From positions 434,001 through 498,000 of the forward strand of contig NZ_JQNJ01000001.1 of NCBI RefSeq assembly GCF_000745185.1: a DNA stretch of 64,000 bases, read 5' to 3'. Every line of letters starts with the position of its first letter. The stretch's first letter is position 1. Source of the DNA: Muricauda sp. MAR_2010_75. Its GTDB lineage: Bacteria > Bacteroidota > Bacteroidia > Flavobacteriales > Flavobacteriaceae. Below the pieces are notes generated by a model. It was not told the origin of the DNA. It worked only from the letters and a program-made list of their open reading frames with translations, and made no database searches. Shown in pieces: positions 37,814-64,000 of the stretch. Position numbers and translations under genes: made by a program.

Positions 37814-37908
37814 AAAACCGATTTGGTATAATTGTTGACCAAAATAAGGGTATTGGGCAGATGGCGCAAACTTTTTATCTTTTGAAGATATAAGTTACCT
37901 TTGCCGCC

Positions 37909-38030
37909 CGCGTTAGGGATAGAGGCGATATCCTTTTTCTGTTATTTAGAGCGAAGTCGAGAAACAGAAAAAGATAAAGCCGAAAGCCCGGCCGAAATGT
38001 TGCGAAGCAATATTTTGGTAACGCCCACAC
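37909..38030 (+). ncRNA. candidate structured small RNA upstream of tmRNA
   Basis: A perfect -7 element (TACCTTTG, 37896-37903) lies just before a ladder of nested helices: GGG 37916-37918 with CCC 37987-37989, GGC 37924-37926 with GCC 37979-37981, and an 11-bp helix CTTTTTCTGTT 37933-37943 with AACAGAAAAAG 37963-37973. These are separated by symmetric 5-base internal loops. GCGTTA near 37910 can pair with TAACGC near 38020. The apical loop holds the repeat word GAGCGAAGTCGAGA. A rod with internal loops recalls 6S-type RNA (the Rfam 6S-Flavo family is worth testing), but I cannot assign it. Confidence 0.45.
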
Positions 38031-38135: not shown

Positions 38136-38175
38136 AATTCGTTTACGGTAAGCAAAGCTTACCTAACTCATTATG

Positions 38176-38571
38176 GGGCCGACCGGTTTTGACAGCAAGA
38201 CCAATGGCGATGTAAGCATGCCGAGCGCTGGGATACAGCTCGTTAATCTCATGTTTCACACTTTTAATTGGCGATAATAATTACGCTCTTGCCGCATAAT
38301 CTGAATTATAGTAGGATTAGCCTCGTCCCTACAAGGTAGGGAAGCGAGATGTCCCTTGGTAGCCCTTGTTGACGGCGACCTTTTTAGGGGCACCAAAAAA
38401 GTCAACACAAGGGTGTCCGTTTGCTTTGGCGGTACCACTAAAACCTAAAGAAGCTAAGTGTATATTGGGCCGTATCTGGTCAGGTATGCATCGAAAATGA
38501 AGCAGATACTAAGCATGTAGAAAGCATGGTTATTGCTTGTTTGGACGAGGGTTCGAATCCCTCCGGCTCCA
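38176..38571 (+). ncRNA. ssrA: transfer-messenger RNA (tmRNA)
   Basis: A single-piece tmRNA of about 396 bases rescuing stalled ribosomes. The acceptor stem pairs GGGGCCG (38176-38182) with CGGCTCC (38564-38570); GACCGGTTTTGACA starts the D-like region, and the T arm is GAGGGTTCGAATCCCTC. The resume codon and tag ORF (38270-38299) read GDNNYALAA-stop, preceded by the alanine from the charged tmRNA. The CCA end is not fully encoded. A T-rich terminator follows directly. The gene is on the plus strand and is followed by integrase remnants. Confidence 0.97.
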
Positions 38572-38576
38572 CATTG

Positions 38577-49947: not shown

Positions 49948-50079
49948 GATATTACATTACCATGATCTTAATATTTATTGAAACCATCACGCGACAAAGA
50001 CCATGAAAGTTTAACCAAAATACCTTTTTTGGCCGACATTGTTTTTCTCCAGTTCAATAAACTATCTATTCTACGGGAA

Positions 50080-50126
50080 ATTGACAAAAACGTATTGAAA
50101 ATTGAAGGTTTTTTTGAATATTTTAA
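50080..50126 (+). promoter_or_regulatory. GH5 promoter with shared 19-bp box
   Basis: The box ATTGACAAAAACGTATTGA (50080-50098) ends in the -33 TTG (50095-50097); 21 bases later is TATTTTAA (50119-50126, 4 of 6 consensus positions). The same box and spacing occur before GH27 and GH9. It ends 46 bases before the GH5 ATG. Confidence 0.6.
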
Positions 50127-50144
50127 TCGCTCAAACATAAGGTC

Positions 50145-51158
50145 ATGGTAAATTTTATTGGAAAGTATTTTTTCATTTTTTTGGTGCATTGTACATTCAT
50201 AAATGCTCAACAACCAATGGGGCGTATATCAGTCGATGGCAACAATTTTGTAACAGAAGATGGCAAGACCATTGTTTTCAGGGGCATGAGCTCAAGTGAT
50301 CCGGATAAACTGGAAAAGGATGGTTTATGGAACAAAAGTTACTTTCAGGAAATTAAGAGATGGGGTGCAAACCTCGTTCGATTTCCAATACATCCGGCGC
50401 GAGTCAGGGAAAGGGGGGAGGAAGAATATTTACAGCTTTTGGATGAAGGAATCCGATGGGCGAGTGAAGAAGGGCTTTATGTAATTATAGACTGGCACAG
50501 TATAGGCAACCTTAAAACAGGCATTTATTTGGCCGATATGTACGATACCGATATGAAAGAAACCTTCAATTTTTGGAGGACCATTGCAGTACGTTATGGG
50601 GAAAATCCCATAGTTGCATTTTATGAGCTTTACAATGAGCCTACGACATTTAACAATAGGTTTGGGACAGTGACCTGGGAAGAATGGAAAAAAATCAACA
50701 AAGAAATCATTACTATCATCAGGGCCAATGGTGGCAAGGGCATCCCCCTTATGGCAGGCTTTAATTGGGCCTATGACCTTACACCTGTAAAATTCTCTCC
50801 TTTGGATGTTGAAGGAATTGGCTATGTAAGCCATCCTTATCCCCAAAAAAGAGAAAAGCCTTGGGAGGAAAAATGGACGATGGATTGGGGCTTTGTCAAG
50901 AAAAACTATCCAGTAATACTGACCGAAATGGGTTTTTCTGGCCCAGAGGATCCTGGAGCCCATATTCCAGTGATAAGCGATGAATCCTATGGGGACGCCA
51001 TTACAAACTATTGCGATGAAAGAGGGATTTCATATGTGGTCTGGGTATTTGACAAACAATGGGCCCCACGACTCTATACCGATGACAGCTATACGCCTTC
51101 AAGGCAAGGAAAATACTTCAAAAAGAAATTGCAGAGCTATGACAAGGGCAATAAGTGA
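50145..51158 (+). CDS. glycoside hydrolase family 5 (endo-beta-mannanase/glucanase)
   Basis: A 337-residue secreted enzyme (signal MVNFIGKYFFIFLVHCTFINAQ). The (beta/alpha)8 fold shows SVDGNNFVTEDGKTIVFRGMS, NLVRFPIHPARV, VIIDWHSIG, the acid/base Glu in FYELYNEPT (about residue 165), YVSHPYP and the nucleophile Glu in VILTEMGFSG (about residue 262). These are the standard GH5 (clan A) catalytic positions. Activity on glucan or mannan backbone cannot be separated by sequence; the locus suggests mannan or glucomannan. It converges with the GH27 gene, with 9 bases between stops. Confidence 0.9.
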   Translation: MVNFIGKYFFIFLVHCTFINAQQPMGRISVDGNNFVTEDGKTIVFRGMSSSDPDKLEKDGLWNKSYFQEIKRWGANLVRFPIHPARVRERGEEEYLQLLDEGIRWASEEGLYVIIDWHSIGNLKTGIYLADMYDTDMKETFNFWRTIAVRYGENPIVAFYELYNEPTTFNNRFGTVTWEEWKKINKEIITIIRANGGKGIPLMAGFNWAYDLTPVKFSPLDVEGIGYVSHPYPQKREKPWEEKWTMDWGFVKKNYPVILTEMGFSGPEDPGAHIPVISDESYGDAITNYCDERGISYVVWVFDKQWAPRLYTDDSYTPSRQGKYFKKKLQSYDKGNK

Positions 51159-51167
51159 TGTATTTTT

Positions 51168-52415
51168 TCAAAATCTATTCTTTTTCTCAAGCAACACCAT
51201 TAACACATCGTGGCTATCCAGAGCAGCATTTAATTTTCTTGAAGTATCACCTAGTTTTTTATGTTGGAACAAGTCCTCTATGGTGTAGTGATATGTGTCA
51301 ATTTTAAGTCTAAGTTCATTCAGCTTATCTTCAATACTCCCCAGATGCCAGTCATATTGCAATTCGAAAACTTGGTCCGTCATGTTCACAAAAACCACCG
51401 CCCAAGCATCATTGGATAAAGGTTTTGCCCAAATTTCAATGCCATCATCATCTGATACCTTAAACCCTTGTATTCCCAAAGGATCCTGATTGACTCCTAT
51501 TACTTGGTCATTTGTCAATATTTCAATGGTCTTGGGTTTGACTTTTCTAAGATCATTGCCCAAAATCAAGGGAGATGCCATAATACTCCACATGGCTAAA
51601 TGGCTTTTATCCTCTGCATCTGTCATACCATTGCCCACCTCCATCATATCCAAATCGTTCCAGTGACCGGGTCCAGCTGCATGTCGAATATTTTTTCGCA
51701 TATTGATAATTTTCCATACCCCCCAAGATGACCAACCACCATGATCCACCTCACAATCCCAACAATTTGTAATATCTCCAGACACCCGCCACATGTGCCC
51801 CACATTTTCCGCCCAGTCCCATGGTCGATTGTTGCCCCATTCACAAATGCTAAAAAGAATTGGGCGGCCGGATTTGGCCAAAGCGTCTCTCATGGTTTCA
51901 TAAGCACCTTGTGCGTTCAGATTTTCAGTATTGCACCAGTCATATTTTAAGAAATCCACTCCCCATGCCGCAAAAGAACGCGCATCTTGGTATTCATGTC
52001 CCCTATTCCCTGGAAATCCTGCACATGTTTTTGAGCCTGCACAACCATAAAGCCCAAATTTGAGGCCCTTGCCATGAACATAGTCGGCCAATGCCTTCAT
52101 ACCGTTTGGAAATTTTTGTGGATCTGCTACCAAATCACCATTTTCATCACGCTCTTTGGACATCCATCCATCATCCAAAACAATATACTCATAACCCGCA
52201 TCTTTTAGGCCAAGGGTGACAAATAAATCCGCTGTGTCCATTACAAGACTTTCATCGATATCTGTGGCAAAAGTGTTCCAACTGTTCCAACCCATAGGAG
52301 GGGTTTTGGCAAGCCCATTAAATTTTTGACCACAAGAGAATGTGACAGTCAAAAAAAGACCAATAATGAAAATGCTTCTTAATTTTCGATAAAAAATAGA
52401 CTTGAAATTGTTCAT
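51168..52415 (-). CDS. GH27 alpha-galactosidase lipoprotein
   Basis: A 415-residue lipoprotein (signal ending LTVTFSC). Clear GH27 motifs: KTPPMGWNSWNTF, YIVLDDGWM, KFGLYGCAGSKTCAGFPG, nucleophile Asp in FLKYDWCN (about residue 157), and acid/base Asp in WRVSGDI (about residue 213), with a C-terminal beta-sandwich. It removes alpha-1,6-galactosyl side groups, here presumably from galactomannan. The lipobox places it on an outer membrane leaf. Its transcript has a long leader, starting near 52580 with a terminator-like hairpin just before the start codon. Confidence 0.93.
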   Translation of the reverse strand: MNNFKSIFYRKLRSIFIIGLFLTVTFSCGQKFNGLAKTPPMGWNSWNTFATDIDESLVMDTADLFVTLGLKDAGYEYIVLDDGWMSKERDENGDLVADPQKFPNGMKALADYVHGKGLKFGLYGCAGSKTCAGFPGNRGHEYQDARSFAAWGVDFLKYDWCNTENLNAQGAYETMRDALAKSGRPILFSICEWGNNRPWDWAENVGHMWRVSGDITNCWDCEVDHGGWSSWGVWKIINMRKNIRHAAGPGHWNDLDMMEVGNGMTDAEDKSHLAMWSIMASPLILGNDLRKVKPKTIEILTNDQVIGVNQDPLGIQGFKVSDDDGIEIWAKPLSNDAWAVVFVNMTDQVFELQYDWHLGSIEDKLNELRLKIDTYHYTIEDLFQHKKLGDTSRKLNAALDSHDVLMVLLEKKNRF

Positions 52416-52436
52416 GTTGAATGTTTTGTAAAGAAA

Positions 52437-52460
52437 AAAACCCCGATTTCACGGGGTTTT
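52437..52460 (-). terminator. terminator-like hairpin in the GH27 leader
   Basis: On the minus strand: AAACCCCG / CGGGGTTT stem (8 bp), 6-base loop, followed by seven T residues and CTTT. It stands 22-45 bases upstream of the GH27 ATG, inside the predicted leader, so it would prematurely end transcription of its own gene unless prevented. Confidence 0.7.
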
Positions 52461-52587
52461 CTCTTGAATAAAAAAAACTAACTCAAAAAAGATTAAACTA
52501 ACTTGAAGGTTTGCTGTTCTTGTGTCCTCCCTATTTAGAACTCATTACAATTACTGTCCAAGCCATATTTATCATTTCTCTCAATAT

Positions 52588-52634
52588 CAAAAGTATTGTA
52601 CCGATGTTGGTTTTTCTAATATTATTTTGTCAAT
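52588..52634 (-). promoter_or_regulatory. GH27 promoter with shared 19-bp box
   Basis: On the minus strand: box ATTGACAAAATAATATTAG (52634 to 52616) whose TTA sits at the -33 position, 21-base spacer, then a perfect -7 element TACTTTTG (52595 to 52588). Transcription would start near 52580, giving a leader of about 165 bases that includes the terminator-like hairpin. Confidence 0.65.
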
Positions 52635-52643
52635 TACCCATTA

Positions 52644-52674
52644 AATCTTGATATTTTTGGAAATTATCAAGATT
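52644..52674. promoter_or_regulatory. 10-bp inverted repeat, candidate operator
   Basis: AATCTTGATA (52644-52653) and TATCAAGATT (52665-52674), an exact inverted repeat with an 11-base spacer, 10 bases upstream of the GH27 box on its far side. Its spacing fits a dimeric repressor or activator site. No other copy was seen. Confidence 0.45.
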
Positions 52675-52935
52675 ATTTATATCATTTTTTCAATTTTTCT
52701 TATACGCTACCTCAGCCCCCTTTTGAATTGGGAGAAATCAGGATGCCATAATACTATCCTAGTATGACAAATTAGTATCAACAGTTCTGCATTCCAATAA
52801 TTATTTTTGGATTATAAATCTCACTTTTTTTAATTCTTTTCAGTGATAAATAAACAATAATTGGCCGTTTTAAGTTTAGAATACATAAAAGGTGTAAGTT
52901 TTTAAAGGTGTTATTGTAGTAAACCTGGTGACCCC

Positions 52936-52967
52936 TTGACAAAATCGATTTAGCTAAAATAATTTCT
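52936..52967 (+). promoter_or_regulatory. weak candidate promoter of the symporter operon
   Basis: TTG at 52936-52938 (within CTTGACAAAAT), 21-base spacer, then TAATTTCT at 52960-52967 (4 of 6 consensus positions). The TTGACAAAA word resembles the first half of the 19-bp box but its second half is not conserved. Confidence 0.35.
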
Positions 52968-53042
52968 CAGGAAGGCTTGGACCGCATAGTATAAAAGTCA
53001 AATTCATAGGTATGGAATACCCTTTAACCAAGATTTACAGGA

Positions 53043-54875
53043 ATGCTTAGGACCATAGATGTCGTAATCATTGCAACATATCTGCTAGCGACCATTTTCA
53101 TTGGATTAATTCTAAGAAGAAGGGCCCAAAGGAGCAAGGAAGACTATTTGTTGGCCGGGAACTCCATACCATGGTACATGTTAGGCCTTTCCAATGCTTC
53201 GGGCATGTTTGATATATCTGGAACCATTTGGCTGGTGACCCTCATGTTCGTATATGGGATTAAAAGTGCATGGATTCCGTGGCTATGGCCTATCTTCAAC
53301 CAAGTTTTTTTAATGGTGTATTTGTCCAAATGGCTGAGAAGGTCCAATGTGACCACCGGGGCTGAATGGATTAGGACACGTTTTGGAAACGGGAAAGGTG
53401 GAAAACTGTCACATACCATTGTGGTGGTCTTTGCCCTTTTGAGCTGTCTCGGTTTTTTGGCGTATGGGTTTATTGGATTGGGAAAATTCATGGAGATTTT
53501 TATTCCATGGGAAGTTTTGGCAAATTATGTTCCATTTGACGTCCCGGCTGCATATGTGCCCCACTTTTATGGTGTTGTGTTTACCTTGTTCGCCGTTTTT
53601 TATTCACTTTTAGGAGGGATGTCCGGAATTGTCTGGGCCGATGTGCTGCAATTCGGTATCATGACAATTTCTGCAATAGTCATCGGTTACTTGGGGTTTG
53701 TAGCCATAGGAAACAACCCCTTGAACGTTCCCGATGGATGGGGAACTCCCTTTTTCGGTTGGGAACTGGACCTTGATTGGTCCAATATCATTCCTCAGGT
53801 AAATGAAAAAATAAGGTCCGATGGTTATGGCCTCTTTACCATATTTTTTATGATGATGATTTTCAAGGGAATCTTGGTGAGTTTGGCTGGCCCAGCCCCC
53901 AATTATGACATGCAGAAGATTCTTTCTGCCAAAAACCCCAAGGAAGCTTCCAAAATGAGCGGTTTTGTATCCGTCATTCTCATGCCCATTCGCTACTTGA
54001 TGATTGCCGGATTTGCAGCCCTTGCTTTGATCTATTATGAAAAACTGGATTTGATCACCGCCACGGGTGAGGTCGATTTTGAATTGATCCTGCCCTCAGC
54101 CATAAAGGAATTTGCGCCTGTGGGCTTAATGGGGCTTCTCTTGGCCGGACTTTTGGCGGCTTTCATGTCCACTTTCGCAGGAACCTTGAATGCGGCGCAG
54201 GCCTATCTGATCAATGACATATACCTTAACCATAAAAAAACGGAAGTGACCCCAAAACAAGTAAAGGTCATGAACTATGGCTCTGGGATCTTGGTTGTCC
54301 TGGTGAGTATCTTCCTAGGTTTCTTCGTCGAAGACGTCAATTCGGTCTTACAATGGTTGGTTTCCGCTCTTTTTGGAAGTTATGTGGTGGCCAACATTTT
54401 AAAATGGCATTGGTGGCGTTTCAATGGCCATGGTTTCTTTTGGGGAATGGTTGCGGGTATGGTACCAGCATTGATACTTCCCTATGTCTTTTCGGCAACC
54501 CTAGACCTGTATTACTTTCCGATTTTGCTGATAACTTCCATACTGGGATGTGTGATTGGAACCTATTCCGCACCGCCCACTGAAGAAAAGGTTTTGCGCT
54601 CGTTTTATACCAATGTTAGGCCTTGGGGCTTCTGGAAACCCATAAGCGACAATATTCGCATGGAAAACCCAGGCTTCAAGAAAAACACCCATTTTAAAAG
54701 GGATATGTTCAACGTACTTACAGGTATTGTGGCACAAACGGTCTTGGTAATGCTTCCCATGTATTTGATATTCAGACAAAACATTCCGGTACTGATTCTT
54801 TTGGCCGTATTGATCTTGTGCATCCTTTTGCTCAAAAAATTCTGGTGGGACACCCTTGGGGAACAACTTGATTAG
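53043..54875 (+). CDS. Na+/sugar symporter (SSS family)
   Basis: A 610-residue inner-membrane transporter with about 13-14 helices. The start is MLRTIDVVIIATYLLATIFIGLILRRR, followed by SKEDYLLAGNSIPWYMLGLSNASGMFD (the SSS TM1 sodium-site region), GMSGIVWADVLQFGIM and LLAGLLAAFMSTFAGTLNAAQAYLINDIY, all standard for solute:sodium symporters. In Bacteroides fragilis a similar symporter (ManB) imports mannobiose beside a GH26 mannanase and an epimerase, as in this operon. It starts an operon with the epimerase (32-base gap) and the GH26 gene. Confidence 0.88.
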   Translation: MLRTIDVVIIATYLLATIFIGLILRRRAQRSKEDYLLAGNSIPWYMLGLSNASGMFDISGTIWLVTLMFVYGIKSAWIPWLWPIFNQVFLMVYLSKWLRRSNVTTGAEWIRTRFGNGKGGKLSHTIVVVFALLSCLGFLAYGFIGLGKFMEIFIPWEVLANYVPFDVPAAYVPHFYGVVFTLFAVFYSLLGGMSGIVWADVLQFGIMTISAIVIGYLGFVAIGNNPLNVPDGWGTPFFGWELDLDWSNIIPQVNEKIRSDGYGLFTIFFMMMIFKGILVSLAGPAPNYDMQKILSAKNPKEASKMSGFVSVILMPIRYLMIAGFAALALIYYEKLDLITATGEVDFELILPSAIKEFAPVGLMGLLLAGLLAAFMSTFAGTLNAAQAYLINDIYLNHKKTEVTPKQVKVMNYGSGILVVLVSIFLGFFVEDVNSVLQWLVSALFGSYVVANILKWHWWRFNGHGFFWGMVAGMVPALILPYVFSATLDLYYFPILLITSILGCVIGTYSAPPTEEKVLRSFYTNVRPWGFWKPISDNIRMENPGFKKNTHFKRDMFNVLTGIVAQTVLVMLPMYLIFRQNIPVLILLAVLILCILLLKKFWWDTLGEQLD

Positions 54876-54907
54876 AAACAGGAAATGTTTAAAGTTTAAA
54901 TCGTCCC

Positions 54908-56089
54908 ATGTCCAAAGATTACAAAGAACTTAAAGATGAATTGCGCAGTGAATTGGACAATATTTTGACGTATTGGTCAACTTTTGGCATTGATGATCAA
55001 TACGGAGGCTTTGTAGGGCAACGTGATTTTTACAACCAGCTTGTGCCGAAAGCATCCAAGGGAATCATTCTGAATACCCGTATCCTCTGGTCCTTTTCAG
55101 CTGCGTCCAATTACCTGAAATCAAAAAAACACGAATCTATTTGTAATAGGGCCTACACCTATTTAAAGACCTATTTCAAAGATAAAGGCCATAAAGGTGT
55201 TTTTTGGGAAGTAGATCATAACGGAAATCCTCTCAATACAAGAAAGCAAGTGTATGCCCAGGCCTTTGCCATTTATGCGCTCTCCGAGTATTACCTGTTT
55301 TCCCAAAAGGAAGAAGCAAAGGATTGGGCCGTTTCCCTTTTTGAAAATTTGGAAACCTATGCAAGGGACAGGCATAATTTGGGATATTATGAAGCTTTTT
55401 ACGAGGATTGGACCCCCATACCCGATATGCGTTTGAGCGATAAGGATATGAACGCTGCCAAGACCATGAACACTCATCTGCATGTTTTGGAAGCTTACAC
55501 CAGTTTATTGAAAGTGTATGACCATCAAAAGCTTAGAGATGCACTGCGGGAGTTGATTGTCCTTTTTCAATTTAAGTTTTTGAATAAGTCAAACCACTAT
55601 GATCTTTTTTTTGATAAAGAATGGAGCCTCCTGAGCACTACCATTTCCTTTGGGCACGATATAGAAACGGCCTGGCTGGTCATTGAGGCGGCCAAAGCAT
55701 TAAACGATGAAAGCTTGGTTCAACAGACCCAAGAAACGGCCATTAAAGTAATCGACACTTTTTTGTTGGAAGCTTTGGATCATGATGGGGCCGTAATGAA
55801 TGAAAGGGACACAGCATCAAACCATTTGGACACCGATAGACATTGGTGGCCCCAAGTGGAGGCTCTTATCGGGTTGAAATATGGCCATTCCCTGACCCAA
55901 AATCCTGATTATATTGAAAAATCCATTGGTATATGGGAATTCACAAAACAGTTCTTGATCGATAAAGCGCATGGAGAATGGCATTTTAGGGTCGATTCTG
56001 AAGGACGGCCCTATAAAGAAGAGGACAAGGTGAGTATGTGGAAAGCCCCCTACCATACTACCCGTGCCTGTATTTTAATGAGCCAATGA
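54908..56089 (+). CDS. cellobiose/mannobiose 2-epimerase
   Basis: A 393-residue AGE-superfamily (alpha/alpha)6-barrel enzyme, cytosolic. Markers of the cellobiose 2-epimerase type: KGIILNTRILWSFSAA, AKTMNTHLHVLEAYT, SFGHDIETAWL, RHWWPQVEALIG and SMWKAPYHTTRAC, holding the catalytic His residues. It interconverts mannobiose and mannosylglucose (or cellobiose and glucosylmannose). With the symporter upstream and GH26 mannanase immediately downstream (7-base gap), the mannan route of B. fragilis is the best model, in which the product is split by a GH130 phosphorylase not found here. Confidence 0.9.
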   Translation: MSKDYKELKDELRSELDNILTYWSTFGIDDQYGGFVGQRDFYNQLVPKASKGIILNTRILWSFSAASNYLKSKKHESICNRAYTYLKTYFKDKGHKGVFWEVDHNGNPLNTRKQVYAQAFAIYALSEYYLFSQKEEAKDWAVSLFENLETYARDRHNLGYYEAFYEDWTPIPDMRLSDKDMNAAKTMNTHLHVLEAYTSLLKVYDHQKLRDALRELIVLFQFKFLNKSNHYDLFFDKEWSLLSTTISFGHDIETAWLVIEAAKALNDESLVQQTQETAIKVIDTFLLEALDHDGAVMNERDTASNHLDTDRHWWPQVEALIGLKYGHSLTQNPDYIEKSIGIWEFTKQFLIDKAHGEWHFRVDSEGRPYKEEDKVSMWKAPYHTTRACILMSQ

Positions 56090-56096
56090 TCGGACC

Positions 56097-57362
56097 ATGA
56101 CTAAACAATACTTTCTTATTTTGGTTACAATTATTTTGCTGACAATGAGCGGTTGTTCCAAAGATTCGGATTCCGGTTTTTATGAACCTGAACCCATTGA
56201 AGAAGACCCAACCCCGGAAAATCCACTTCCACCCGGTGAACTTGACTTTGAACCCGAGGAGACCAGAAGTTTCATGGTAAACCCGGATGCCACAGAAGAG
56301 ACTGTTGCGCTCTTTTACAATTTAAAATTGCTTTCACAAAATAGTTTTATTGTAGGTCAGCAAGATGCATTCAGCAGCTTCTATCAAGATAATGCCGGGG
56401 ATTCTGACATCAAAAAAATGACCGGAAGTGATCCCGGACTATTGGGGTCGGACTTCATGTTCATTACAGACGACCTTAACGATGGAACCCCTTCCAATTG
56501 GTTTTTCCAACAAGAAAACCAGATCAGGGATGACGTCCTCAGGGCTTTTGATATGGGTTTGGTCAATGTTTTCTGTTGGCACTTTCGTGAACCTTTTGAG
56601 GGCGAACATTTCTATACAAGTGAAATGACCCAATTTCAAAGGGAAAATGCCCTGAAAAGTATCTTGCCGGGAGGTGAAAACCATGACTACTATAAGCAAA
56701 AGCTTGAAAAAATAGCATCGTTCACCAAGAGCTTGGTGGGTTCCAATGGTGCATTGGTCCCCATCATCTTCAGGCCTTTCCATGAATTTGATGGTGATTG
56801 GTTTTGGTGGGGGCAATCCTTTTGCACCATCGAAGAATATATACAGCTTTGGCAGTTTACGGTAACATACCTTAAAAACACCTTGTCTGTGAACAACATG
56901 CTCTTTGCGTTTTCACCAGATAACCGATTTTTTTCAGAAAGCGAATACTTGGCACGGTATCCCGGGGATGACTTTGTGGATATCATGGGAATGGACAATT
57001 ATGGGGATTTCAATAATCAAGGCCAAGCCGGTGTTGAAAGGGCGAACCAAAAACTAAAGATTGTGTCCGACTTGGCAGAGGAAAGGGTTAAAATAGCTTC
57101 ACTTACCGAGACAGGGTATTTTGTCACTTTAAGCGAAAACGGGGCCATTCCAGGTTTTTTTACCAATAACCTCTTTGAAGCCTTGACACATAACGATGTT
57201 AAGATTGGTTTTACCATGTTTTGGTATAATTATCAAGACACGTATTGCACACCTGTACCCGGTTTGCCCAGTGCCAATGATTTTATGGAGTTTGTGTCCA
57301 AACCAGAGGTGATTCTTGCAGATGACCTGCCAGAAATGTACCGGCTACCGCCCAATTCTTAA
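56097..57362 (+). CDS. GH26 endo-beta-1,4-mannanase, surface lipoprotein
   Basis: A 421-residue lipoprotein (MTKQYFLILVTIILLTMSGC) with an acidic/proline linker (SKDSDSG... EEDPTPENPLPPGEL), typical of Bacteroidota surface lipoproteins. The GH26 module follows: FIVGQQDAFSSF, NVFCWHFREP, the acid/base Glu in FRPFHEFDGDWFWWG (Glu230) and the nucleophile Glu in IASLTETGYF (Glu338), plus MGMDNYGDF. GH26 enzymes cut beta-1,4-mannan, releasing mannobiose. It is last in the symporter-epimerase operon. Confidence 0.93.
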   Translation: MTKQYFLILVTIILLTMSGCSKDSDSGFYEPEPIEEDPTPENPLPPGELDFEPEETRSFMVNPDATEETVALFYNLKLLSQNSFIVGQQDAFSSFYQDNAGDSDIKKMTGSDPGLLGSDFMFITDDLNDGTPSNWFFQQENQIRDDVLRAFDMGLVNVFCWHFREPFEGEHFYTSEMTQFQRENALKSILPGGENHDYYKQKLEKIASFTKSLVGSNGALVPIIFRPFHEFDGDWFWWGQSFCTIEEYIQLWQFTVTYLKNTLSVNNMLFAFSPDNRFFSESEYLARYPGDDFVDIMGMDNYGDFNNQGQAGVERANQKLKIVSDLAEERVKIASLTETGYFVTLSENGAIPGFFTNNLFEALTHNDVKIGFTMFWYNYQDTYCTPVPGLPSANDFMEFVSKPEVILADDLPEMYRLPPNS

Positions 57363-57501
57363 CTATAGTAAGGCGCCCCTCATTAAATTGGAGCAATCTT
57401 AGCTATTGTCTATGAATCTCAAGAAAAGTTGTTCGAAATAAATCAATGTATACGTACTATAGAAAAATCAAAGAACGGAACTTCATTTTTTTTGGGTTTC
57501 T

Positions 57502-58494
57502 TTACTTCAAGATTGTCTCTATTTTTTCCAGTTCATCATTGGTAAAGTGCAAGTTTTGTAAAGCGCCCAAATTGTCTATCAGTTGTTTTGTGCTGCTCAC
57601 ACCTACCAGTACCGAGGTCACTCTCTCATCTTTTAACAGCCAAGAAATTGCCATTTGTGCTAAACTCTGCCCCCTGTTGCCGGCCAATTGGTTCAGTTTT
57701 TTCACTTTCGTAAGCACTTTATCGGTGATTGTGTCTTTCTGCAAAAAACCTGTGCTTTTGGCTGCCCTGGAATTTTTAGGGATTGATTTTAAGTATTTGT
57801 CCGTGAGAATTCCTTGTTCCAGGGGTGAAAATGGAATGCACCCAATACCTTCATCGCCCAGAACATCCATAAGACCATCCTCTACCCAGCGGTCCATCAT
57901 GCTGTAACGGGGTTGGTGGATCAGGCAAGGAGTGCCCAAACTTTTTAAAATTTTTGAAGCCTTCAAAGTATCGTGGTGGTTATAGGACGAAATCCCCACA
58001 TAAAGTGCTTTTCCTTGCCGCACTATAAGGTCCAATGCAGTCATAGTCTCTTCCAAAGGGGTTTTCGGGTCTGGTCTGTGATGATAAAATATGTCCACAT
58101 ACTCCAAACCCATGCGTTTTAGGCTTTGATCTAAACTTGCTACCAAGTACTTTTTGGATCCCCAATCACCATAGGGACCTGGCCACATTCCCCATCCAGC
58201 TTTGCTGGAGATAATCATCTCATCCCTGTAAGGCAAGAAGCTTTGCTTCATGACCTTTCCAAAGTTTTCTTCTGCAGATCCTGGCGGGGGACCATAGTTG
58301 TTGGCTAGATCAAAGTGGGTCACACCTTTGTCAAATGCGGCATGGAGTATCTTTTTACCCTCTTCAAATAAATCTACATATCCGAAATTATGCCAAAGCC
58401 CCAAAGATATTGCGGGGAGCATCAAACCGCTTTTTCCGCATCTTCTGTACGGCATGGTGTCATAACGTTTACTATCAGCTAAATAAGGTTCCAT
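57502..58494 (-). CDS. aldo/keto reductase, YghZ-type
   Basis: A 330-residue cytosolic NADPH-dependent AKR. Opening MPYRRCGKSGLMLPAISLGLW; catalytic tetrad readable as Asp and Tyr in THFDLANNYGPPPGSAE, Lys in IISSKAGWGM, and His in IFYHHRPDP; cofactor region FSPLEQGILTDKY and VLVGVSSTKQL. Length and wording fit YghZ (L-glyceraldehyde 3-phosphate reductase) homologs, which also act on other aldehydes. It is the last gene of the AGE-araC-esterase-AKR operon (3-base gap from the esterase). Its role in mannan use is not obvious. Confidence 0.87.
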   Translation of the reverse strand: MEPYLADSKRYDTMPYRRCGKSGLMLPAISLGLWHNFGYVDLFEEGKKILHAAFDKGVTHFDLANNYGPPPGSAEENFGKVMKQSFLPYRDEMIISSKAGWGMWPGPYGDWGSKKYLVASLDQSLKRMGLEYVDIFYHHRPDPKTPLEETMTALDLIVRQGKALYVGISSYNHHDTLKASKILKSLGTPCLIHQPRYSMMDRWVEDGLMDVLGDEGIGCIPFSPLEQGILTDKYLKSIPKNSRAAKSTGFLQKDTITDKVLTKVKKLNQLAGNRGQSLAQMAISWLLKDERVTSVLVGVSSTKQLIDNLGALQNLHFTNDELEKIETILK

Positions 58495-58497
58495 AAA

Positions 58498-59619
58498 TTA
58501 TTCCAGTATTTTTTTTAAAAAGGGTTCCAATTGATCTGCCATTGTTTTGTGATCTTCTAAATCAGGATGGGAGGTGCACCCATTCGGCTGCATTTCCTCA
58601 AATTGAAAAATAGATATTTTTGGGTCGTTCCCAAAATGGTCTTTGACTTCTTTAAGGGATTCCAAAAGTATTTTTCCCTTGTCGCCTGAAACCATTGGGG
58701 ATGTGAGCAGTACCATTTTTGCCTCTGGATTCTTCCCAAACAGATGCTCTACGAATTTTGTGTAATTCTGTACAAATTTTTCCTTGTTGAAGGGCAATCT
58801 GGGCTTTGTGCCATCACCTTCAGACATATCATTGGTGCCCAGGCAAATACAAATGATGTCCGGCTTATCATCAAAGGAATACTTATGGGAAGTATCAGTG
58901 TTCAAAAAAAGATTGTCATAGACCTCGGGCATAATGGGTTCTGCAAGGTTCTCGTCATTCCAATTCCTGTACATCCCAATGCCTGAAACAGAGCTTAGTA
59001 AATAATCAGAATTGAGTGCTCTCGCAACTCTTGGCCCAAAGGCAAGATAGGCATTGTGCTGATCGAACCATTCCCCTTCCCCACAGGGCACAGTTGACAA
59101 ATCTGCACCCATACCACAAGTAATGGAATTTCCTATAAACTCCATTTTGGTCGACCTTCTTATTGTGGCCACACCTATTTTTTTTGATTTTGCTCCGTAA
59201 AAAAGAATGGAACCATTGGATGCTTCCGTTGCCTTATAAAGGCCTACTCCATGAGGTTCTGGTCCAACAGTAGGCAATGCTATGGCTATTCTATTTATGG
59301 AGTCGCTACCAATTTGGTACCTATCCTTGTATTTTCCGTCAATGGACAGTGTAAAATAGTTATGCGAGTCGTTATTCGATTTGAGAAACAGTTCTAAGGT
59401 ATCCCCTTCAGCATTGAACTCAACACCGGAAGCGGAGCTTATTAGAGTGGTATGTGAATCTTTTTTTAAAACCCTGCCTTGATAGTAAAAAATGGTATCT
59501 CCGGACCTGTAAAGATATCTTTCATCCTTGTTGTCCACGTCACACCCCAATAGATTCAATGTCAGCAGAATGGCGAAAACCAATGAAGTGGCCCTATTAT
59601 GGCCGCGTAATGCTATCAT
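58498..59619 (-). CDS. CE2-like SGNH acetyl-xylan/mannan esterase lipoprotein
   Basis: A 373-residue lipoprotein (signal ending LTLNLLGC). N-terminal ~120 residues form a jelly-roll (YLYRSGDTIFYYQGRVL) followed by an SGNH/GDSL hydrolase: block I GNSITCGMGAD with the Ser nucleophile, block III CLGTNDMSEGD with Asn, and block V HPDLEDHKTMA with Asp-His. The two-domain layout matches carbohydrate esterase family 2, which removes acetyl groups from plant mannan/xylan. Its start overlaps the araC stop by four bases (ATGA), showing coupled translation. Confidence 0.85.
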   Translation of the reverse strand: MIALRGHNRATSLVFAILLTLNLLGCDVDNKDERYLYRSGDTIFYYQGRVLKKDSHTTLISSASGVEFNAEGDTLELFLKSNNDSHNYFTLSIDGKYKDRYQIGSDSINRIAIALPTVGPEPHGVGLYKATEASNGSILFYGAKSKKIGVATIRRSTKMEFIGNSITCGMGADLSTVPCGEGEWFDQHNAYLAFGPRVARALNSDYLLSSVSGIGMYRNWNDENLAEPIMPEVYDNLFLNTDTSHKYSFDDKPDIICICLGTNDMSEGDGTKPRLPFNKEKFVQNYTKFVEHLFGKNPEAKMVLLTSPMVSGDKGKILLESLKEVKDHFGNDPKISIFQFEEMQPNGCTSHPDLEDHKTMADQLEPFLKKILE

Positions 59620-60503
59620 AACACTCTTCTTATACCTATGAATTCTGCTCTATAGGAGCTTGGGGTTGTACCTTTTACCTTCTTAAAGACCCTGTTGAAG
59701 TTCGCCATATTGTTGAAACCGCACTTGTAGCCAATTTCACCGATGCTCAGATCGGTTTCTATCAACCACCGGGAAGCATAACTGATACGGGTATCGTTGA
59801 TATATTCAATAAATGTCTTTCCGGTTCTTTTCTTGATGAACCTATTGAAGGAAACTACGCTCATATTTACCAATTCCGAAATTTCACCAAGGGAAATTTT
59901 TCGGTCAAAGTTCTCTTGGATATACTCATATACCTTTTTTATTTTTTTACTGTTCTCAAAATCATTCAACTGTGATACATTGGTGGAGAGCAATCTTTGG
60001 TTTCTAGAATTGGCCAGGTCGTGTAAAATGGAGATGAGTTCAAGGAAATAGTCAATATTTGCGGTTTTGGAAAGGCGTATGATCCTGGGCATTGTGTCCG
60101 TTGAAATCTTTTTGGAAAAAAGAATTCCGTGATTTGCACGATAGAACATGTCCCTTATAGGTTTAAAAATGGCCCTTGAAAGCAACTTATCATCAAAAAG
60201 ATCCTCATGGAACTGGATGGTTATTTCATGGATTTCCCTTGATGTGCACCTATGCATTTCCCACCCGTGCACCAAGTTGGGGCCCACCAGGACCAGTTCA
60301 ATGTCATCAATCTCCTCAAGGTTGTCCCCAACAATCCGCCTCACCCCTTTTCCATTGCTTATAAAATTGAGTTCAAATTCAGGATGAAAATGAATCGGAA
60401 AATCAAAATCTTGCTTCAACCGATCAAATACCAAAAAACTGTCCTCGGGCGCAAGGGGGGTTATCTCCCTGTGTACATTTTTCAAAAGATGCTCATTTTC
60501 CAT
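59616..60503 (-). CDS. AraC family transcriptional regulator
   Basis: A 295-residue regulator; the ATG at 60503 (MENEHLLKNVHREI) is preferred to a GTG at 60557. The N-terminal cupin-like sensor has FPIHFHPEFELNFISNGKGVRRIVGDN; the C-terminal double-HTH has KISLGEISELVNMSVVSFNRFIKKRTGKTFIEYINDTRI and LSIGEIGYKCGFNNMANFNRVFKKVKGTTPSSYR. It is the only regulator in the mannan locus and so the best candidate to bind the shared 19-bp box. It is followed by the esterase (ATGA overlap) and preceded by the AGE-family gene. Confidence 0.92.
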   Translation of the reverse strand: MENEHLLKNVHREITPLAPEDSFLVFDRLKQDFDFPIHFHPEFELNFISNGKGVRRIVGDNLEEIDDIELVLVGPNLVHGWEMHRCTSREIHEITIQFHEDLFDDKLLSRAIFKPIRDMFYRANHGILFSKKISTDTMPRIIRLSKTANIDYFLELISILHDLANSRNQRLLSTNVSQLNDFENSKKIKKVYEYIQENFDRKISLGEISELVNMSVVSFNRFIKKRTGKTFIEYINDTRISYASRWLIETDLSIGEIGYKCGFNNMANFNRVFKKVKGTTPSSYRAEFIGIRRVL

Positions 60504-60564
60504 TTTTAGTTGAAAGTTAATGGTGGATCCCAGTGTTGGACAACCGTGGCCGGTCACTTAAATA

Positions 60565-61926
60565 TCAATCCATATTGTTTTGTTCAAGTCGGCCTGCACA
60601 ATTGACCAGTGCCCTATAATTGTGGTAAGCCCCTTTCCAAATATGGCCTTTGGGCTGAAATTTGGTTTCAGGTCTGGTATCAATTCCCCACTCATACCAC
60701 CCTCCATGATCGGGATCCATGATATACGTATTGGTATACTGCCATAATTTGTCAAAATATGCTCTATAATTTATTGAATCTTTTGGAAAGTAAGTGTCCA
60801 TCATCAAGAGGCTGTTCAAGCCTTCTGCTTGCGACCACCAATTTTTATCATAATTTACGATGCTCAGTTTTTCATCCCCTGCATAATAATATCCTCCATC
60901 ATAGAAGCCCCCATGTTTGTTGTCCCAACCATTCGTAATGGCATGGTCCACCATTATTTTTCCCTTTTTTAAAGTTTGGTCGAATTGTAGACCGCCAAGT
61001 GCCTCGGAAGCTTCCAGCATAAGATAGGCGGTCTCAACATCATGGCCAAAGGAAACATGGTCAAGGTAATAATGTTTTTGAATGGTATCCTTGGGTGTAT
61101 CAACAAAAGTTACGGGCGTCCAATCCGCCTCGAAGAACAAGTTCATGTACCCCTTATTGGTAGTAATGGAGTCGCGTATCAAAACAAGGAGTTCCCCGAC
61201 CCGTTCCCCCACCAATGGATCAGGCCATACTTTGTAAAGGGCCGTCAACGCCTCCAAGAGATGTATTGAACTGTTTTGGTCCTTATACCCGATATCCGAA
61301 GTCGATGGAAAATCTCCAGTTCGTACAATAGGTGTTCCATTTATGTCCATGGATTGATAATATCCTTTATATATGCTGTCATGGCTATGCTCTTCCAACC
61401 AGCGAAAAGCCTGTTTGGCCAAATCCAATGCCTCCCCATTTTTTGAAACGGCATAATAAACCGCCAACCCATAAATTGCAAATGAGTTTCCATATGCTGT
61501 TTTGGCTTCACCTGGACGGACTATGGGCTTTCCTTTTTTGGTCACCAAATTATGGAACCCGCCATTTTTTCCGTCCCACATGTGATCGCGCAAAAACTTG
61601 AATCCGTGTTCCGCATAGGAAAGATATTCCTTTTCCTTATCACCATCATGCATTGCTGCGGTAGCAGTGGTCCAGATATGCCGGGCCTGGGTAACGATCA
61701 TCTTGTCATGCCGTTCCCCTAACTTAAAATCAAAGGTCACTTCACTATAATAGCCACCATCCACTGTGTCCAGCACCAGAGGATACCACTTATCCAGTAA
61801 TTGATCGTTGGCAGCGGTTTGGAATTCCAATACCATATCGTCATTGACAGGGGTGTTTCTTTTCTCGGTGGTACAGCCCAAAACAAATATTATGGCAAAA
61901 AAAGATAGGGTCCGAATAGTTTTCAT
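60565..61926 (-). CDS. AGE-superfamily epimerase-like lipoprotein
   Basis: A 453-residue protein; the ATG at 61926 gives a lipoprotein signal (MKTIRTLSFFAIIFVLGC). The mature part is an AGE-type (alpha/alpha)6 barrel: VTQARHIWTTATAAMHD, YGNSFAIYGLAVYYA, SIHLLEALTALYK, SFGHDVETAYLML, NWWSQAEGLNSL and WKGAYHNYRALV, so the catalytic His motifs of the family are present. Known 2-epimerases are cytosolic; the lipobox here places the enzyme outside the cytoplasm. Its substrate (mannose, cellobiose or another saccharide) is not known. It heads the operon with araC, esterase and AKR. Confidence 0.85.
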   Translation of the reverse strand: MKTIRTLSFFAIIFVLGCTTEKRNTPVNDDMVLEFQTAANDQLLDKWYPLVLDTVDGGYYSEVTFDFKLGERHDKMIVTQARHIWTTATAAMHDGDKEKEYLSYAEHGFKFLRDHMWDGKNGGFHNLVTKKGKPIVRPGEAKTAYGNSFAIYGLAVYYAVSKNGEALDLAKQAFRWLEEHSHDSIYKGYYQSMDINGTPIVRTGDFPSTSDIGYKDQNSSIHLLEALTALYKVWPDPLVGERVGELLVLIRDSITTNKGYMNLFFEADWTPVTFVDTPKDTIQKHYYLDHVSFGHDVETAYLMLEASEALGGLQFDQTLKKGKIMVDHAITNGWDNKHGGFYDGGYYYAGDEKLSIVNYDKNWWSQAEGLNSLLMMDTYFPKDSINYRAYFDKLWQYTNTYIMDPDHGGWYEWGIDTRPETKFQPKGHIWKGAYHNYRALVNCAGRLEQNNMD

Positions 61927-61998
61927 ATAGAAGATTATTGACAATAAAGATATAATAATCCTCATATTTTAAATATTATTGAAAATATCATACTCTAT

Positions 61999-62045
61999 AT
62001 TGACAAAATAATATTGATAGTTGGATGGCGTATCCCATAATTTTA
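61999..62045 (+). promoter_or_regulatory. GH9 promoter with shared 19-bp box
   Basis: The box ATTGACAAAATAATATTGA (61999-62017) includes the -33 TTG (62014-62016); 21 bases later is TAATTTTA (62038-62045, 5 of 6 consensus positions). The box ends 47 bases before the GH9 ATG, almost the same distance as in the GH5 gene. Confidence 0.65.
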
Positions 62046-62064
62046 CCTGAATTATTGGCCAACC

Positions 62065-64000
62065 ATGAAGTTTTTCCCACTTGTTTTTCTATTTTTCACC
62101 ATTGCAATGGTGCATGCCCAGAAATCCAATGACCTCCAAAACCAAGATTTTATCATCAACGATTTGGAATACCTGGAGCGTAGGGGCGCCAATGTGATGC
62201 TTGCCCATGATTTTTACCCAGAAAGCCATCAAGGGGGTGTTGGCATCATCCAAAATGGCATTCGGGTGGCCACCAATGGTGACCTTAGACTTGAAGCCGC
62301 ACCTGGACAATGGCAACCCGTTCCTAAAGTGGGTGAGCGGAACGTAGATCGTGAAAAACAGGAAATCAGCGTTAGGATGGCATATCCCGACGAATCCAAG
62401 GACAAAAAAGGGTTTAACCCCATTGATTACCCTGACCTGAATTTCGCATACACCTTAAAAGTGGTGCCATCCGGTAAATCCTTTAAAATAATTGTTGATC
62501 TTGAAGAACCCCTGCCCGAAGAATGGATTGGAAGGGTAGGGATGAATCTGGAACTGTTTCCCGGGGTCCTCTTCGGTAAGTCGTATTATATGGACCGATC
62601 TTTTGGATTGTTCAATCGCCAGGCCAATGGTCCAGGATCAAAAAATGCACATGGCATTTATGAACTCGAACCCATGGCCATGGGCAAGAAATTGGTCATC
62701 GCACCTGAAGAACCGGGTCAGACCCTGGTCATTAAAAACATGAACGGATCTCCGCTCCAACTTTTGGATGGGCGTGCCCAACACAGCAATGGATGGTTCA
62801 TTGTACGTTCACTGATCGCTCCCGGAGCCACAAAAAATGCCGTGCAGTGGTTGGTTACACCCAAAACATTGGAAAATTTCACTTATAGTCCTGTTGTACA
62901 GGTATCCCAAGTGGGGTACCATCCTTCACAGCAAAAAATTGCCGTGATCGAAACGGACAAAAACGATGAAACCGTTGAGAAAGCCCATTTGTTCCAGGTT
63001 GGAGAAAATGGGGAGCTCAACGAGGTCCTGTCCAAGACCCCAAAGTCTTGGGGCGGTTTTTTAAGATATCGGTATTACCAATTTGATTTTTCGGAGATCA
63101 AAGAACCCGGAATGTACCAAATTGGTTACGGACAATATACTAGTCATCCGTTTCAAATAAGCAGCACCGTTTATCAGCGCCATGTTTGGCAGCCCACCTT
63201 GGAGTACTTTTTACCGGTACAGATGTGCCACATGCGGGTAAATGACCGATATAAGGTTTGGCATGGACTCTGTCACATGGACGATGCCCGGATGGCCCCC
63301 ATCAATACCAATCATTTCGATGGGTATCTCCAAGGGCCTGAGACCCTGACCCAATACCTATCGGGAGAGCATGTCCCTGGGATCAATATAGGGGGTTGGC
63401 ATGATGCGGGGGATTATGACCTCCGGGTAGAATCCCAGGCCTCCACCATCCATGGGCTTTCCCAGATTTACGAGATCTTTGCCGTCGATTATGACAACAC
63501 TGCCATAAATCAGTCCAATAGGACCGTGGATTTATTGACCCCTGATGGGAAGCCGGATATTTTGCAGCAAATTGAACACGGGGCATTGTCCATCGTTGGG
63601 GGATACAAGAGCATGGGCCGATTCTACCGAGGTATCATCGTACCCACCTTGGGTCAATATGTACTGCTTGGGGACCCCGTGAACCACAGTGACAACAAAA
63701 TATTTTCAAATGAGGAGGAAGACAATAAAATTGCCCTGGGTCAGTCCGGAGCTCCCGATGATCGATGGGTGTTCACGGAAAAGAACCCGTTCAGGGAGTT
63801 GGGAACCGCTGCAGCCTTGGCCGCGACTGCAAGGGCCCTAAAGGGGTACAACGATACTTTGGCAGAGGATTGTTCATCCATAGCACTTGAGGTATGGAAT
63901 TTGACCAAAGTGGAAAACCCCCTTTTGAAAGTCGGACTGGCCGCCGAACTTTTACAGACCACAGAGGATAAAAAATATGCTGATTATTTGGTGGAACACG
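62065..64000 (+). CDS. GH9 endo-glucanase-like glycoside hydrolase (partial)
   Basis: At least 645 residues, open to the right edge. Signal peptide MKFFPLVFLFFTIAMVHAQ. Residues about 20 to 270 form a beta-rich N-terminal part. The CelD-type Ig-like domain begins with VVQVSQVGYHPSQQKIAV. The (alpha/alpha)6 catalytic domain holds NIGGWHDAGDYDLRVE with the catalytic Asp pair (about residues 445-451), the GH9 signature. The C-terminal catalytic Glu lies beyond the window. It cuts beta-1,4-glucan or mixed glucan/glucomannan chains. It is transcribed away from the AGE gene from its own box-containing promoter. Confidence 0.9.
   Translation, partial: MKFFPLVFLFFTIAMVHAQKSNDLQNQDFIINDLEYLERRGANVMLAHDFYPESHQGGVGIIQNGIRVATNGDLRLEAAPGQWQPVPKVGERNVDREKQEISVRMAYPDESKDKKGFNPIDYPDLNFAYTLKVVPSGKSFKIIVDLEEPLPEEWIGRVGMNLELFPGVLFGKSYYMDRSFGLFNRQANGPGSKNAHGIYELEPMAMGKKLVIAPEEPGQTLVIKNMNGSPLQLLDGRAQHSNGWFIVRSLIAPGATKNAVQWLVTPKTLENFTYSPVVQVSQVGYHPSQQKIAVIETDKNDETVEKAHLFQVGENGELNEVLSKTPKSWGGFLRYRYYQFDFSEIKEPGMYQIGYGQYTSHPFQISSTVYQRHVWQPTLEYFLPVQMCHMRVNDRYKVWHGLCHMDDARMAPINTNHFDGYLQGPETLTQYLSGEHVPGINIGGWHDAGDYDLRVESQASTIHGLSQIYEIFAVDYDNTAINQSNRTVDLLTPDGKPDILQQIEHGALSIVGGYKSMGRFYRGIIVPTLGQYVLLGDPVNHSDNKIFSNEEEDNKIALGQSGAPDDRWVFTEKNPFRELGTAAALAATARALKGYNDTLAEDCSSIALEVWNLTKVENPLLKVGLAAELLQTTEDKKYADYLVEH

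Follow-up and report, generated by a model that had tools for sequence, protein, structure and literature searches.

In Escherichia coli, the araI1-I2 operator and other class II AraC sites consist of two half-sites arranged in tandem at a distance of 21 bp, with the proximal half-site overlapping the -35 region of a sigma-70 -35/-10 promoter. Comparable repeats have been described in Bacteroides: the one-component AraC regulator RhaR, which responds to rhamnose, has a predicted direct-repeat motif with 21-bp periodicity (PMC3870299), and in Bacteroides thetaiotaomicron the regulons of hybrid two-component systems (HTCS), among them the HTCS_Man group for alpha-mannan, are described as pairing an AraC-type DNA-binding domain with direct repeats of approximately 21 bp (PMC3878776). 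In the carrageenan locus of the marine flavobacterium Zobellia, deletion of the AraC regulator CgrA is reported to slow growth on carrageenans (PMC5698469). Here we describe an element of this kind in a 64,000-nucleotide stretch of the genome of Muricauda sp. MAR_2010_75 (contig NZ_JQNJ01000001.1, positions 434,001 to 498,000; hereafter the window), where a 19-bp box precedes three glycoside hydrolase (GH) genes of a beta-mannan locus. The box is very probably one half of a tandem AraC-type operator, both halves of which would be bound by the AraC-family regulator encoded in the same locus (59616-60503, minus strand), which would thereby activate six putative beta-mannan transcription units in a class-II-like manner.

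The locus has the gene content (GH5, GH27, GH26, GH130, symporter, AraC and HTCS) of the beta-mannan polysaccharide utilization locus reported for Muricauda sp. MAR_2010_75, whose proteins were reported to be induced by mannan and, the HTCS excepted, upregulated on galactomannan; that paper gives no operator, and the word “promoter” does not occur in its main text (PMC9860051). Among the titles and abstract beginnings listed in searches of the open-licence literature, none gives this operator. The resemblance to RhaR is one of description rather than of aligned motifs, and the inducer and the genes differ (PMC3870299). The HTCS regulators differ in being two-component sensors fused to a regulator and in controlling alpha-mannan and other genes, whereas the sites described here follow a one-component AraC. 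CgrA shares with our regulator the AraC family and the setting in a marine flavobacterial polysaccharide locus, but its substrate is carrageenan (PMC5698469). Unlike araI1-I2, the operator described here is joined to a Bacteroidota -33/-7 promoter.

The tandem structure was recovered de novo from relatives of the locus. Expectation-maximization (EM; zero-or-one-site model, 40-base motif, random seeds) was applied to 134 upstream sequences from 17 loci of relatives (L057-L063 and L134-L143), with exclusion of the window and of its 97% sister L056, from a Muricauda genome that has the same locus with a 97% identical AraC. The motif obtained was a tandem repeat, tgaAAAaATt.TAT.AttAaa followed directly by TGAtAAAATA.TATTA, with a log-likelihood of 298-313, compared with at most 129 in ten dinucleotide-shuffled sets. 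When lags of 14-27 were compared, the similarity between motif columns was highest at lag 21; the motif is thus built from two direct half-sites approximately 21 bp apart, as in AraC-type tandem operators. We used the forward-oriented solution; in the top-scoring one (297.7 vs 295.3), the motif was unchanged and several sites were read on the opposite strand.

The -7 element was not part of the searched motif, yet among the 29 sites (one stretch of L063 being counted on both strands) TAnnTTT was found 18 bases past the motif in 19 and one base further on in three more, compared with a background of 0.0067 per position. The relatives’ sites carry the TAnnTTTG consensus, which is placed at -12 to -5 in Flavobacterium (PMC9723704). 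When 36 loci from other Bacteroidota (Chitinophagaceae, Pedobacter, Mucilaginibacter, Larkinella and others, with close relatives of one another among them) were analyzed, the same kind of motif emerged de novo, with a core of approximately GnTAAAAaAGTATTA; when the first motif served as the seed, TAnnTTT lay at offset 18 in 24 of 45 sites, at 19 in five and at 17 in two. A fixed operator–promoter distance therefore recurs in distant relatives, which bears out the proposal of a preliminary description of this DNA that the box is fixed in position relative to the -7 element.

That description had further read the box as a -33 element plus an upstream activator site. The -33 consensus of the Bacteroidota sigma-A promoter is TTTG or TTG, and in two sets of 19 and 20 relatives’ sites TTG was kept at this place in only one site each. 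The letters that are conserved at this place are part of the operator rather than of a -33 element, and the box is instead the promoter-proximal half of a tandem repeat of 21-bp period that covers the -33 region. By position alone, the arrangement is class-II-like, as the proximal half overlaps the -33 region at a fixed distance from the -7 element.

A profile, R1, was made from those 19 relatives’ sites, out of 29, in which the -7 element lies at offset 18; the E-values of such profile models are rough. Where three sites had been proposed, R1 marks six in the locus, two of them weak. The first four ranks in the genome belong to the promoters of GH9 (E = 1.2e-7), GH27 (6e-5), the SSF symporter (2.2e-4) and SusC (3.4e-4); the GH26/GH130 promoter is at rank 7 (E = 0.08) and that of GH5 at rank 8 (E = 0.27). 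At GH9 (62065-63999, plus strand; Pfam Glyco_hydro_9, continuing past the window to 829 amino acids), the match at 61978-62044 contains a distal half-site at 61978-61996, 21 bp upstream of the box at 61999-62017, and the -7 element TAATTTTA lies at 62038-62045. On the minus strand, the match at 52651-52585 contains the box at 52634-52616, followed by the -7 element TACTTTTG at 52595-52588, which has the same letters in L056 and L063, and by the GH27 gene (51168-52415; Pfam Melibiase_2). The GH5 match at 50058-50124 (plus strand) contains the box at 50080-50098; the -7-like element TATTTTA (50119-50125), one mismatch from TAnnTTT, starts 20 bases past the box, and the gene (50145-51158; Pfam Cellulase) follows. 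The sites missing from the preliminary description are that of the SSF promoter, with a match at 52749-52812, a box at 52763-52781 and the -7 element TATTTTTG at 52802-52809 (all plus strand) ahead of the symporter gene (53043-54875, plus strand; Pfam SSF), and two that fall beyond the window, at SusC (G000:C1:512470-512537, minus strand) and at GH26/GH130 (504063-504122, minus strand).

The three boxes first proposed lie where they had been placed. The GH5 and GH27 copies share 16 and 17 of 19 bases, respectively, with the GH9 copy, a 17-base core is common to GH27 and GH9, and the distance from box to ATG is 46 bases at GH5 and 47 at GH9, as had been described; at GH27, unlike these two, it is 200 bases. 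The proposed spacing of 21 bases between the last TTG/TTA of the box and the -7 element holds in all three, but at GH5 the element lacks the final T of TAnnTTT. With the -7 element placed as in Flavobacterium (PMC9723704), transcription starts would be expected near 50131, 52583, 52814 and 62050, with predicted leaders of approximately 14 nt (GH5), 168 nt (GH27), 229 nt (SSF) and 15 nt (GH9). The SSF leader also holds a further conserved copy of TTGACAAAATCGATTTAGCTA at 52935-52956 (plus strand), up to 96% identical to L056 with flanks that fall to 64%; it has no -7 element at the usual distance and may be an extra half-site or a downstream operator.

The literal consensus ATTGACAAAANNNTATTRR has exactly three matches on both strands of the genome (4,424,696 bases, one contig), and all are these boxes. 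Its two one-mismatch matches lie within other open reading frames, and at up to two mismatches the count (41 vs 34 for the reversed pattern) is that of the background. Within the 64-kb window, the pattern of the preliminary description, allowing three mismatches, matched seven times against 2.67 expected, and seven was reached in 2 of 100 shuffles. This pattern was picked after the sites had been seen, and it is the profile built from relatives’ sites that provides an independent test.

The product of araC matches HTH_18 (7e-22) and HTH_AraC (7e-16) of Pfam and the DNA-binding domain of E. coli AraC (2k9s, 2e-9), and thus has the C-terminal double helix-turn-helix of the AraC/XylS family; its N-terminal 200 residues or so, in which a sugar-binding cupin domain was sought, have no Pfam match. 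Among 71 genomes of the genus, an ortholog (at least 55% identity) is present in ten. R1 matches at E ≤ 1e-4 occur in nine of these ten genomes compared with none of the 61 others, a comparison that is partly in-sample, and all 28 matches (E ≤ 0.01) in the nine lie within 22 kb of an ortholog. Seven scattered matches (7.6e-4 to 8.6e-3) are spread over six other genomes of the genus, the AraC-bearing G021 included. Because several genus sites were in the training set, the test was repeated on 397 genomes of the family, 65 of which have an ortholog called at E ≤ 1e-90. At E ≤ 1e-3, R1 matches were found in 39 of the 65 (38 of 64 without our own genome) vs 7 of the 332 without AraC (Fisher 1e-28, own genome excluded); at E ≤ 1e-4, the counts were 27 of 65 vs 0 of 332. 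In the AraC-bearing genomes, 55 of 60 matches lay within 25 kb of araC. Comparison of 49 family loci with those training loci that come from other genera revealed no identical sequence, but the locus of G386 is closely related (89-93%) to the training locus L059. These results point to the AraC encoded at 59616-60503 as the best candidate for the reader of a mannan-locus operator, as had been suggested.

The genes behind the sites agree with this assignment. In the family, 20 of 74 AraC loci were scanned, giving 35 R1 matches at E ≤ 0.1; among the best 27 (E ≤ 0.005), 24 stand ahead of relatives of SusC, GH26, SSF, GH9 or GH27 and three do not. In G194, a pair of sites lies on a different contig from araC and is flanked by SusC/SusD on one side and a GH26-SSF-GH130-epimerase operon on the other (L267); here, a mannan locus was found by the motif alone. 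In another AraC-bearing genome, we observed a match (L266 6939-7006, minus strand; E = 1.8e-6) remote from araC, ahead of a protein with CBM60, CBM10 and CBM5/12 modules, with a GH10 gene adjoining. Of two further remote matches in AraC genomes, one precedes a SusC-like gene (L269) and one is unexplained (L268). The genus member G070 has an additional araC ortholog (70%; L135, G070:C1), accompanied by GH26-SSF-GH130-epimerase genes and operator sites of its own.

In the mechanism that we propose, the operator consists of two direct half-sites, with a consensus of approximately wTGAyAAAATAnTATTA, 21 bp or two helical turns apart. The AraC of the locus would bind both halves in the presence of beta-mannan breakdown products, occupy the place of the -33 element and hold RNA polymerase on the TAnnTTTG -7 element, which lies 20 bp past the box. 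The operator would turn on six putative transcription units: GH5, GH27, symporter-epimerase-GH26, GH9-GH26, SusC/D and GH26-GH130. The GH9 operator occupies the divergent region 61927-62064, shared with the epimerase-araC-CE2-AKR genes, so that binding at this operator might subject araC to autoregulation as well. The start of the epimerase may be at 61926 instead of 61965, because the match to its L056 relative begins at residue 14.

Several results weigh against this interpretation. R1 ranks 5 and 6 in our genome fall outside the locus, and the GH5 site is weak, having an imperfect -7 element and a poor distal half besides its high E-value. A second profile, R2, made from 20 of the 45 sites of other Bacteroidota (24 at offset 18, minus four near-duplicates), placed GH9 at rank 2 (E = 0.15), GH5 at 8, SSF at 9 and GH27 at 13 of 23 matches in our genome, with weak E-values of 0.15-2. 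G021 has AraC and no R1 match below 1e-3, and 26 of the 65 AraC-bearing family genomes have no match at E ≤ 1e-3, a count obtained with stricter search filters. The seven family genomes with a match and no AraC are exceptions of the opposite kind; none of 17 locus proteins was found beside their matches by tblastn (L270-L276). The preliminary description had also proposed a search constrained by the -7 element; in 38 other genomes the box plus 20 bases plus TAnnTT, at up to two mismatches, matched 21 times vs 20 for the reversed control, and one of the 21 (G012:C49:11668) adjoins an araC ortholog. The literal consensus is thus at background beyond our genome; its literal form is genome-specific, and what is conserved is the looser motif. 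Finally, co-occurrence does not fully separate AraC from other conserved parts of mannan loci.

The last point bears on the HTCS of the locus, which could read the operator in place of AraC. Its gene is divergent from SusC (L144:1128-5147), and as Bacteroides HTCS operators are predicted to be direct repeats with a mean distance of 21 bp (PMC3878776), it is a serious rival. In the genus, close orthologs of this HTCS are present only in our genome (G000) and in G070 (93%), the best match elsewhere being 33%, and seven of the nine motif-bearing genomes therefore lack one. Among 55 relatives’ loci, each of up to approximately 20 kb so that an HTCS could lie elsewhere, only partial HTCS matches of 24-34% identity were found, in five. 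The sites thus do not track the HTCS ortholog, as judged from whole genomes in the genus only, and we consider reading by the HTCS unlikely. It is less plausible again, indeed barely credible, that the box is a generic A+T-rich promoter element (-33 or UP-like) recurring by chance or in strong promoters. The box is A+T-rich and overlaps the -33 region, and its loose matches are at background both in our genome (41 vs 34) and in the 38 others (21 vs 20); but exact matches are confined to this locus, R1 matches at E ≤ 1e-4 are absent from all 332 AraC-less family genomes, and the TTG is unconserved. The co-occurrence in genus and family, together with the loss of the -33 TTG, largely refutes a generic element.

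AraC could also read the operator as a repressor that acts without mannan, or in both ways, as E. coli AraC does. The operator abuts the araC start in several relatives (e.g., L140 and L139), an arrangement that would permit autorepression. A half-site that overlaps the -33 region is typical of activators, as in the class II sites of the AraC/XylS family, and a promoter with the proximal half at this place is expected to be weak alone; we therefore regard derepression as improbable and favor activation by AraC.

The GH27 promoter differs from the other sites in what follows it. A hairpin that the preliminary description did not mention, AACCCCG-N6-CGGGGTT plus a T run (52460-52434, minus strand), resembles an intrinsic terminator and lies between the promoter and GH27. 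Only 18 nt separate it from the ATG, too few to accommodate another promoter. If transcription starts 12 nt past the first base of the -7 element, the predicted product is a leader or small RNA of approximately 150 nt (52583-52434). In 25-base windows compared with L056, the operator (52662-52614) and the leader end with the hairpin (52507-52424) are both 96-100% identical, compared with 88% in the -7 region, 60-92% in the middle of the leader and 52-68% upstream of the operator; since identity is also 92-100% at the beginning of the GH27 gene, part of this conservation may reflect nearness to the gene. L063 retains the box and TACTTTTG, and after them come AACCTCG-N6-CGAGGTT and a T run, a hairpin whose loop is equally long and whose stem differs by one compensatory pair change. 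No GH27 gene lies near this site, and one search of the 3.6-Mb L063 assembly, made without a positive control and with completeness not stated, found none; the L063 hairpin could also terminate a convergent GH5 transcript.

The combination of promoter and hairpin is thus present in the window, L056 and L063. A strict terminator-hairpin pattern was found in none of the leaders of the 29 relatives’ sites or of our five other sites, the GH27 leader of L265 (GH27 62% identical) has no such terminator, and Rfam gave no match at the gathering threshold for the GH27-side leader. In the 71 genus genomes, a full-length relative of the DNA at 52433-52590 was found only in G070; among the matches listed, the other 18 cover 24-48 bases, mostly of the T-rich part, so that an RNA family could not be built. 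A 14-codon reading frame in the leader (52527-52574, minus strand) shares its start and stop codons with L056, and comparison of the two gave no clear sign of selection. We tentatively raise the possibility, itself rather doubtful, that the GH27-side operator drives a separate mannan-induced small regulatory RNA of approximately 110-150 nt with its own terminator, with GH27 expressed by read-through only, or, as a variant, that the hairpin is a conditional attenuator.

By Pfam, the window also encodes two GlcNAc-2-epimerase-family proteins, GH26, an aldo-keto reductase (AKR) and a CE2-type esterase, in addition to GH5, GH27, the SSF symporter, AraC and GH9. Beyond it follow GH26, a 706-amino-acid frame without a match, GH130, another GH26, an FG-GAP protein, SusD, SusC and the HTCS. 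Elsewhere in the window, we observed the Rfam Flavo-1 RNA at 37898-37997 (plus strand), with a transfer-messenger RNA gene directly after it (38175-38574, plus strand).

For the use of beta-mannan across Bacteroidota, this study puts forward a candidate regulator together with its binding motif and a promoter architecture. The suggested geometry, in which an activator half-site would replace the -33 element and be locked to the -7 element, provides a testable rule for promoter activation in these bacteria, and the motif may be used to locate mannan operons that are remote from araC.

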